This document shows positions 38,901 through 39,415 of a stretch of 47,330 bases of DNA, piece by piece. Source of the stretch: Bacteroidaceae bacterium (GTDB lineage: Bacteria > Bacteroidota > Bacteroidia > Bacteroidales > Bacteroidaceae); contig JAEEGS010000063.1 in NCBI GenBank assembly GCA_016280445.1, positions 1 through 47,330 on the forward strand, read 5' to 3'. The notes under the pieces were generated by a model that saw only the letters and a list, made by a program, of their open reading frames with translations, was not told where the DNA came from and made no database searches. The position numbers were made by a program, and so were the translations under genes. How positions within the stretch are numbered: position 1 is the stretch's first letter; each line of letters starts with the position of its first letter.

Positions 38901-39415
38901 AGTTCTTGCTTCGACACCACACGCTCTGCCAAGGCATCGGGATAGGTGACCAATAGAAGCCCCCCAGCCCCCGAAGGGGGAGGGCATTCGCAACGTTGAT
39001 CTTTAGGTGTGACGAGATTCCCGTTTGATGCACATCGCGCCAGCCCTCCCCCTTCGGGGGCTGGGGGGCTTACCTTTGTTAGCACCTCAGTTCTCAGAAT
39101 CTCGTTGCCTGCATCCTTTTGATTATACTTGATGGCTCTTCTGTACGACGATGGGAAGAAAAGCACTCGCTCCGCACCCATCATTTGTGTCAAGTCATGG
39201 TACATATAGCCAGCATCGTCCATGTCATTCATCACCACCAGCATATTGGGGGTGTTTCCTTTCCCGTTGACGATAGAGGCTAACAGCAAAGCAGCCGACG
39301 AACCTGTCAGTCCGTCAGCGCTTATCTTTTTCATCTTGCCATTTCTGATGCGCTTGGCAAGTTCTCTTGTCTCTTCAGATGAGGCAAGAACCGAAAGCAC
39401 TTTACTTGTGTCCAA
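35924..39415 (-). CDS. mfd: Transcription-repair coupling factor Mfd
   Basis: 1163 residues. UvrB-like N-terminal part, RNA-polymerase-interaction domain (IGDYVVHIDHGVGRFGG near 477-492), then the RecG-like translocase with GDVGFGKTEVA (Walker A), LLIIDEEQKFG (DEEQ), TMTATPIPRTL and MRGRVGRSNRKAFCYL, and a C-terminal TRCF domain. It displaces stalled polymerase and recruits excision repair. The only usable start in this frame is TTG at 39415. Residues about 115-153 and 309-325 lie where palindromic repeats are inserted in frame. It is longer than most Bacteroidetes Mfd by roughly the size of the first insert. A 48-residue gene precedes it by 15 nt. Confidence 0.95.
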   Translation of the reverse strand: MDTSKVLSVLASSEETRELAKRIRNGKMKKISADGLTGSSAALLLASIVNGKGNTPNMLVVMNDMDDAGYMYHDLTQMMGAERVLFFPSSYRRAIKYNQKDAGNEILRTEVLTKVSPPAPEGGGLARCASNGNLVTPKDQRCECPPPSGAGGLLLVTYPDALAERVVSKQELDESTLAVKVGDEFDISELEQKILELGFQRTDYVYEPGQFAIRGSIVDVYSFSSDMPYRIDFFGDEVDSIRSFDVQNQLSQGKVEMMTIVPNMQKEDTEYISFLEFLPKETLIVTQSLVYVCDKIAQIHEEGFSNQAKTLSPTLPHNGEEDHADWEKEWKRLVVDEETFKQQVVAFRHLELKQGISSGEKSIHFNTAPQPLFHKNFELVNQEFHRLTDEGYKICIFADSEKQISRLQDIFEEMAKTEADAIHFTPVNKAIHEGFIDHTQKLCFFTDHQIFDRFHKYNLKSDKARRGKVALTLKEIQQFEIGDYVVHIDHGVGRFGGLVRVPQGDVMQEMIKITYLHEDTVYVSIHALHKISKYKGKEGEPPRLNKIGGGAWERMKERVKTKVKDIARDLIQLYAARLKEKGFAYSKDGYMQHELEASFLYEDTPDQLKTTQDVKADMEKPRPMDRLVCGDVGFGKTEVAIRAAFKAATDGKQVAVMVPTTVLAYQHYQTFSSRLKEFPVRVEYLTRARTAKETKEVLDDLKAGKVDIIIGTHKLIGKQVQFKDLGLLIIDEEQKFGVTTKEKLRAMKVNVDTLTMTATPIPRTLQFSLLGARDLSIIQTPPPNRYPIQTEIHTFSPEIFAEAINFEMSRNGQVFIVNNKISNLRELEEMIHKYVPDARVCVGHGQMNPQELEKIILDFMNYDYDVMLSTTIVENGIDVPNANTIIINSAQNYGLSDIHQMRGRVGRSNRKAFCYLIAPPLAALNDVTRRRLQAVENFSDLGSGIHIAMQDLDIRGAGNMLGAEQSGFITDLGYETYQKILNEAVAELKENEFTELFAEDDKDEEGRISGEKFVTETNVESDIPAFFPEEYVPSSPERMSLYRELDTLTSPQQLDDYKKHLIDRFGQIPDVGEELIKVMPIKWSAQRLGIEKVVLKMNRMILYFALEDAYFQSRAFEKVLNYVASHGRGCTLRDGDRKSLLIKGIKTMDGALSILETMEKPRT
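38443..38489 (-). repeat. Short palindromic segment in mfd (second insert)
   Basis: On the coding strand it reads GACCCTCTC (38481-38489), then a stem CTCCCCC/GGGGAGG, ending with CCATGCGG (38443-38450). It encodes TLSPTLPHNGEEDHADW at residues 309-325. The same order of blocks occurs in the yfhO-like gene. Confidence 0.55.
38957..39071 (-). repeat. 115-bp palindromic element inserted in frame in mfd
   Basis: Positions 38957-38985 and 39043-39071 are perfect 29-bp inverted repeats. Each arm contains its own smaller palindrome (CCCCCGAAGGGGG / CCCCCTTCGGGGG). The 57-bp centre reads on as SNGNLVTPKDQ in the mfd frame, without stop. The insert adds about 39 residues between TEVLTK and LVTYPDALAE, both typical Mfd sequence. 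Confidence 0.85.

Follow-up and report, generated by a model that had tools for sequence, protein, structure and literature searches.

A palindromic element in frame within mfd of a Bacteroidaceae bacterium, and hairpin-repeat families sharing protein loops in its relatives

Results and Discussion

A perfect palindrome within an open mfd gene

The window, by which we mean the whole 47,330-nt stretch of DNA analysed, is contig C78 of a 3.07-Mb draft genome (84 contigs) of a Bacteroidaceae bacterium. Its mfd gene, identified in the original prediction from the flanking peptides and now by five concordant Pfam domains (UvrB_inter, CarD_TRCF_RID, DEAD, Helicase_C and TRCF), contains a 115-bp element composed of perfect 29-bp inverted arms around a 57-bp centre (Table 1). 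As had been described, the arms are exact reverse complements, each holds a smaller palindrome, and the reading frame runs through the whole element without a stop codon. We assign this element to family 1; two other hairpin-repeat families, 2 and 3, appear below.

Table 1. Features of the mfd locus in the window.
Feature	Position	Strand	Remarks
Family-1 palindromic element	38957..39071	-	In frame in mfd; peptide SPPAPEGGGLARCASNGNLVTPKDQRCECPPPSGAGGL
5' arm (mfd orientation)	39043..39071	-	AAGCCCCCCAGCCCCCGAAGGGGGAGGGC; inner hairpin CCCCCGAAGGGGG
3' arm (mfd orientation)	38957..38985	-	Exact reverse complement of the 5' arm
57-bp centre	38986..39042	-	Resembles the centre of a PcRGLX-borne copy from a different genome
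mfd (transcription-repair coupling factor), host gene	35924..39415	-	1163 aa
Family-3 half element	38455..38488	-	Also in frame in mfd; peptide TLSPTLPHNGEE

In a search for inverted repeats with arms at most 200 bp apart, this element was the strongest of the window (pair I1). It extends to 45-nt arms at 84% identity, whereas arm length is 14–24 nt in the nine remaining pairs. Folded as single-stranded DNA, it reached −48.3 kcal/mol versus a mean of −21.4 for shuffled sequences (z = −10.1), and none of 200 shuffles folded as well. Four Rfam matches with E ≤ 1 were obtained for the element, all far under the gathering scores.

The original prediction placed 39 extra residues in the UvrB-like region of the protein. 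An insert of about 38 residues is present, but the net gain relative to an empty relative is 32 residues (186 versus 90 bp between fixed flanks), because five or six native loop residues are absent. Its location also differs from the predicted one, since the insert precedes the Pfam UvrB_inter domain (residues 177–263). The open frame suggests that the insert should be translated, as a Pro/Gly-rich loop. In an AlphaFold2 model of Mfd residues 1–410 (39-sequence alignment, mean pLDDT 85.8), only two segments of at least three residues fell below pLDDT 50: residues 123–149, which correspond to the family-1 insert and lie between a helix and a strand, and residues 315–321, which correspond to the family-3 half element. 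The element in Mfd is thus modelled as a disordered loop.

Family 1 recurs in unrelated genes

The arm was found not once but at ten places in the same genome (up to 3 mismatches; reversed control, 0), which make up six loci. The copies in mfd and in an M20 peptidase gene are in frame. A third locus is at the 3' end of a gltB-like gene, a fourth combines the 3' end of a glyS-like gene with the start of a lipoprotein, and the last two are apparent signal peptides (the names gltB-like, glyS-like, SufS-like and MtaB-like are read from the sequence, not from Pfam). Two of the six loci are gene-internal. Counting the source genome, 22 of the 45 genomes in the genus matched the arm pattern. Copy numbers ranged from 0 to 72 per genome, and the reversed arm was absent from all 45. 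A looser motif was detected in 16 genomes, again including the source, out of 395 sampled from the phylum; all 16 belong to the class of the source, where four other families are represented, and the motif was absent from the four other genomes drawn from the source's own family.

Genome G010 carries 30 family-1 arms forming 21 loci, of which at least 12 lie within ORFs having a Pfam match. Paired copies occur there in mutS2, PcRGLX, M20, rsgA, MFS transporter and GH31 genes, and single or decayed arms in genes for a BlaI-type repressor, GH43, a SufS-like aminotransferase, a helicase, aroE and RNase HII, the last in a possible N-terminal extension. For G001, G003 and G004, 12 of the 13 pairs listed had no spanning ORF of at least 110 aa, and these pairs were longer (107–191 bp). 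We claim only that genes are not closed to family-1 copies. Recurrent unit lengths are 92 and 113 bp, none of the six frames of the arm consensus contains a stop codon, and the in-gene pairs read SPPAPEGGG/PPPSGAGG, APQPPKGEG/ALPLWGLGG, or a mixture of both.

Similarity was not confined to the arms. The centres of the mfd and PcRGLX copies aligned with a local score of 42 (48 with the mfd orthologue of G011), and no shuffle out of 150 scored higher than 24. The centres of the M20 and helicase copies scored 30–34, with the same shuffle maximum. Altogether 14 of 153 centre pairs exceeded the maximum of 150 shuffles, part of these pairs being orthologous (mfd-mfd, M20-M20) and the shuffles preserving base composition only. 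Since centres are alike at unrelated loci, the whole arm-centre-arm unit must have been copied. A point against this reading is that likeness was only a little higher between the two arms of a single element than between arms from separate elements (24.8 versus 24.0 of 28 positions; 15 of 18 elements, permutation p = 0.013). The proposal of a self-contained repeat is upheld for the copied unit, but no mobilising enzyme was identified (see below).

In ten cases, representing nine distinct genes from five genomes, own included, an arm was in frame at the N-terminus of a protein. There the single arm reads ALALPLWGLGG or a variant, with a basic stretch before it and an AXA or lipobox-like site after it, as judged by eye (examples are MIRRLLSIIALALPLWGLGGFAHAQ, MIKRLSTIIALALPLWGLGGHAQ, MKKLICIIALALPLWGLAGYAQ and MKLKHIIKNILRCTALALPLWGLGSCTE). 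AXA and lipobox sites are the rules by which signal peptides and lipoprotein signal peptides are recognised. In about nine genes (L002, L003, L006, L129, L134, L149, L150, L153 and L166), a single arm thus apparently supplies the hydrophobic core of a putative signal peptide, of the general or the lipoprotein type, and it is to this extent that the repeat may exploit coding positions, as had been suggested.

The same loops are filled, empty or collapsed in relatives

Among 72 Mfd loci fetched, four (L090, L092, L094, L097) miss the loop, which left 68 for comparison. An extra insert of at least 8 residues at the alignment column of the element was present in 12 of the 68 relatives, and a full family-1 insert as in the window in a single one, L026. 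Most orthologues were thus devoid of the insert, in agreement with the original prediction: the other loci had a short loop (TEVLTKVAEAQDLIVVTYPDALAE and similar), as in Segatella baroniae and Phocaeicola faecicola, or smaller variants. L026 comes from RGIG3223, a Bacteroidaceae MAG from goat reticulum and the nearest relative found. Its Mfd is 97% identical, and its insert occupies the same position with 112 of 115 nucleotides identical. In L046 both ends of the element are kept and most of the middle is deleted (AAGCCCATCCTCGGGGGTCGGGGGGCTT), which reads as a collapsed copy. L032 has a family-1-like insert elsewhere in the protein (PTPEGGG...CPPPLGAGG).

Other families occupy this loop as well. 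Family 2 (TLPSPSLQGG...LPVGRVRGGS) was found in L030 and L060, family 3 (TLSLTLPHHG...) in L029 and, collapsed, in L032 and L033, and further repeats beyond these three families in other relatives. In L030 and L060, AGACCCTCTC stands just before the family-2 copy and resembles the start of a family-3 copy. To judge from this sequence, the family-2 copy seems to have replaced a family-3 copy at one site. Other repeat-like inserts, IPHSSFLIPHS and STLHASRSTLHAS repeats, were noted in the Mfd loops of L042, L061 and L065.

Similar situations were encountered in three other proteins. Out of 20 RsgA loci, 17 had no insert (16 with the native 14-residue loop and one with a shorter loop), two contained family 2 and one family 1. 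For the M20 peptidase (20 loci), family 1 was present in four genomes and another hairpin repeat in two, and for MutS2 (20 loci), families 1, 2 and 3 were each present in different genomes, with empty or native loops seen for both proteins. Three MutS2 loci (L272, L278, L279) look like decayed family-1 copies and form an apparent decay series. The loops of Mfd, RsgA, MutS2 and M20 peptidase therefore host two or three hairpin-repeat families in different relatives. Comparison with empty sites of mfd, rsgA and M20, made by eye with relatives too diverged to place junctions to the single base, showed that native codons were lost, with no clear duplication.

Family 2 keeps the reading frame of its hosts

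The family-2 pairs considered here are loci where both arms stand close together in the arm list for six genomes (30 pairs in 27 fetched loci). Their lengths vary (110, 113, 122, 134, 146 and 179 bp), 110 and 122 bp being the recurrent ones, and 27 of the 30 were 2 mod 3. An ORF of at least 150 aa spanned 27 of the 30 pairs, and 25 of these 27 read as TLPSPSLQGG... or a close variant. In recognisable genes (Pfam match, or homology for Mfd), 23 of 24 copies shared one frame, some of the 24 being orthologues across genomes (RNase H1, MtaB-like, GSCFA). The exception, L362, is a 109-bp copy in a CobB/CobQ-like gene, where the sole open frame differs. The first ORFs submitted to Pfam had been chosen for containing the common peptide; Pfam was then also run on ORFs that cross the element in a different frame or on the opposite strand (L362, L372, L353, L367, L369). 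Such ORFs gave no Pfam match at L353, L361, L367, L369 and L372.

In genome G030 (L347–L363), family-2 hosts include CTP synthase, arginyl-tRNA synthetase, UvrA-like, MutS2, Mfd (two copies), RsgA, RlmN, a SpoU methylase, RNase H1 and an MtaB-like radical-SAM protein. Given the frames open in each, the chance that 16 G030 copies always use the common frame is about 7e-5. Family 2 keeps the host reading frame. Constant use of this one frame would equally follow if selection removed copies read in the remaining frames, which are more hydrophobic. We restrict this statement to family 2 because the pair lengths of family 3 (23 arms in the source genome, matches in 24 of 45 genomes of the genus) are non-uniform mod 3.

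Arms are conserved at silent sites

For the four M20 orthologues with family 1, fourfold-degenerate sites were identical in 80 of 83 comparisons for the arms (96%), in 13 of 16 for the centre and in 319 of 649 for the remainder of the gene (49%). At all sites, the counts were 289/309 for the arms, 159/216 for the centre and 3808/4797 for the flanks; these are pairwise counts across four sequences and are not independent. For the MutS2 pair L275/L277 (family 3), silent sites were identical at 18/18 versus 77/123. Only these two sets are informative. Four other pairs went in the same direction, all with very similar flanks on at least one side; flanks were near-identical on at least one side for MutS2 L268/L269, RsgA L242/L243 and M20 L259/L263. 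In the mfd pair (window versus L026), silent sites of the arms were identical at 15/15 and the insert at 112/115 versus 3146/3374 for the flanks (p = 0.085), and recent local exchange could explain the arm identity, since the right flank is 97–100% identical across 240 bp.

Conservation of silent sites implies that the arms are kept at the DNA level. It points to copy-to-copy conversion, or to selection on a DNA or RNA hairpin.

Search for a mobilising enzyme

Genes for Y1 transposases, including RAYTs, were sought by protein, by NF047646 and by PF01797. RAYT-like proteins matched in 38 of the 45 genomes of the genus, and NF047646 in 33, always below its curated cut-off. In 90 fetched Y1 loci (30 + 30 + 30, partly the same genes), with about 1.5 kb on each side, family-1 arms were never found on both sides of the Y1 gene, and only three loci had an arm, on one side each: L328, at about 0.2–0.3 kb and inside a neighbouring ORF, L326, at about 0.45 kb, and L329, at about 1.4 kb. 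No RAYT flanked by family-1 arms was thus found in the 90 Y1 loci, and a trans-acting enzyme may be the mobiliser. RAYT presence and arm presence were not associated among the 45 genomes, as arms were found in 2 of the 7 genomes without a RAYT-like match and in 20 of the 38 others. The former two, G017 and G018, have no NF047646 match either; G018 has one other Y1 gene. No transposase was found for family 1, and no clear target-site duplication was seen in the loci compared.

Family-2 arms were absent from the 90 fetched Y1 loci. Family-3 arms were present in L176, L180 and L200 (the same gene), L202, L210 and L326. In L180 they flank a RAYT-like gene on both sides, 1.3 and 0.9 kb away, and in L202 and L210 the copies lie within an apparent neighbouring coding region. 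In L176, L180, L202 and L210, from four genomes, family-3 copies stand about 0.9 kb from RAYT-like genes, apparently in an orthologous neighbour. Other RAYTs of the genus (L197, L199) are flanked by a different palindrome, around GGGGTCTGACCCC. Perfect palindromes (GTGAATCAAGGGGTCTGACCCCTTGATTCAC, GGATAATCAAGGGGTCTGACCC...) flank the RAYT-like genes of L197 (1138–1947) and L199 (about 1434–1470), one copy in L199 being inside the RAYT-like coding region.

Origin of the insert

The element in mfd is, we propose, very probably one copy of a short palindromic repeat, non-autonomous in nature, that entered a surface loop of Mfd in frame. The family has many copies, its unit is found at unrelated loci, the mfd site is empty in most relatives and the host frame is open; in other relatives, the same loop is occupied by other hairpin-repeat families. 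The repeat consists of a short centre between two inverted, GC-rich hairpin arms, and its copies may spread as single-stranded hairpin DNA, through a trans-acting enzyme or through template switching. Insertions would survive where a loop tolerates them, helped by the absence of stops from the six frames of the arm. Native loop residues would be lost at or after insertion, and with time copies may decay, or collapse through arm-to-arm deletion. Against this proposal, native codons are missing, not duplicated, in the loops compared, a trace that simple transposition would not leave.

Loop length varies among relatives, as expected if the segment were an old, immobile low-complexity linker of Mfd, palindromic by chance. 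This reading is refuted by perfect 29-bp arms that are multi-copy and also present in unrelated genes, with a reversed control of zero, and we give it almost no credence. A metagenome assembly artefact could be feared in a draft genome of 84 contigs, but is most improbable, given that the separately deposited RGIG3223 has the insert at the same place with 112/115 identity. An ordinary REP/REPIN system, in which extragenic paired palindromes are moved by a RAYT (a Y1 tyrosine transposase) and some land in genes, deserves more weight, and we regard it as possible rather than probable. The anatomy is alike (two inverted hairpins, about 90–190 bp), related motifs exist in other families of the class, most listed pairs of G001, G003 and G004 (12/13) lack a spanning ORF of at least 110 aa, and 38 of 45 genomes have RAYT-like matches. 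However, 3 of 90 Y1 loci hold a family-1 arm and none holds arms on both sides, the other RAYTs of L197 and L199, in the same genus, have another palindrome at their flanks, G017 and G018 have arms with neither a RAYT-like nor an NF047646 match (one other Y1 gene in G018), NF047646 stays under its curated cut-off in 45/45 genomes, and at least 12 of the 21 G010 loci are in Pfam-matched ORFs (RNase HII with the possible N-terminal extension).

Spread could also need no dedicated enzyme, if GC-rich hairpins undergo template switching at replication or recombine ectopically, a route we entertain at somewhat below even chances. It is in keeping with the replacement rather than duplication of native loop codons, with conservation of the arms at silent sites, and with the arrangement of L030 and L060, where family 2 follows AGACCCTCTC as if swapped through a shared GACCCTC. 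In contrast, recurrent unit lengths (92 and 113 bp for family 1, 110 and 122 bp for family 2) suit a defined mobile unit better. Beyond the insertion of a non-autonomous repeat in the Mfd loop, a more tentative proposal, on which we would not insist, is that several palindromic families of the genus are adapted to life within genes, through stop-avoiding arms, frame-keeping lengths, one harmless frame, homogenisation or selection at silent sites and re-use of loops, and that they are a recurrent source of disordered loops and signal peptides.

Relation to known systems

Rickettsia palindromic elements (RPE), as outlined in part of PMC2229807, are about 100–150 bp long, have terminal inverted repeats, form a long hairpin and occur in frame in conserved genes. 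The mfd element is likewise palindromic, with 115 bp and 29-bp terminal arms, and family 1 is multi-copy, in frame in unrelated genes and absent from orthologues. The parallel with RPE drawn in the original prediction is therefore apt, with copies in frame in M20 peptidase, mutS2, rsgA, GH31, MFS and other genes. It is a likeness by kind, and the hosts differ: rumen Bacteroidales with genomes of about 3 Mb, of another phylum and not obligate intracellular, in which several families share the same loops.

Intragenic GTAG/CGTC REPs are described in the main text of PMC3733652 as short palindromes, often paired, in ORFs of free-living and intracellular species, many of them in DNA repair and RNA-related genes; in recB of two Xanthomonas, different REPs are found at about the same site. 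Bacteroidetes come up once in that main text, which is silent on mfd, Prevotella and signal peptides. Unlike these REPs, the family-1 arm (AAGCCCCCCAGCCCCCGAAGGGGGAGGGC) has neither GTAG nor CGTC. In the portion of PMC6006769 on REPINs or BIMEs with their RAYT (TnpA-REP), the unit is two inverted hairpins with a short spacer. Family 1 is similarly an inverted pair of short imperfect palindromes, but its location is not mainly extragenic in G010 and in the source genome (the pairs of G001, G003 and G004 are mostly outside ORFs), and no RAYT had family-1 arms on both sides in the 90 Y1 loci with about 1.5 kb each side. Bacterial MITEs, according to passages of PMC2229807, have terminal inverted repeats and open frames fused to genes, and fusions with predicted signal-peptide motifs are mentioned there. 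No parent insertion sequence or clear target duplication was seen for family 1, and apparent signal-peptide use recurs here in about nine genes.

By analogy, the element appears to work like RPE and intragenic REPs. We do not place it in either class because it has no GTAG/CGTC tag, no cognate RAYT was found, and the likeness to RPE is by kind only. In the open-access literature searched, we recognised no report of such elements in Bacteroidales. With several in-gene palindrome families present together in rumen Bacteroidales, and sharing loops, long-standing questions become testable: by what route such elements get into genes and leave them functional, why genes for repair and RNA-related functions are hit repeatedly, and whether protein evolution draws on the elements. 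For comparison, an unusually good natural series is offered by orthologues whose sites are filled, empty, collapsed or, apparently, decayed.

Other repeats in the window

Further repeats were noted at four places in the window. Positions 46–232, near the contig start, contain inverted repeats with 18–20 nt arms, and positions 45883–45924 an inverted repeat with perfect 14-nt arms and a 3-nt loop. Three 24-bp tandem units with CGGTCTGAGTCACACCG are located at 7226–7290 (the third copy at 94%), and a 19-bp exact tandem duplication, TCATCCACACATTATAAAA, at 27393–27430.
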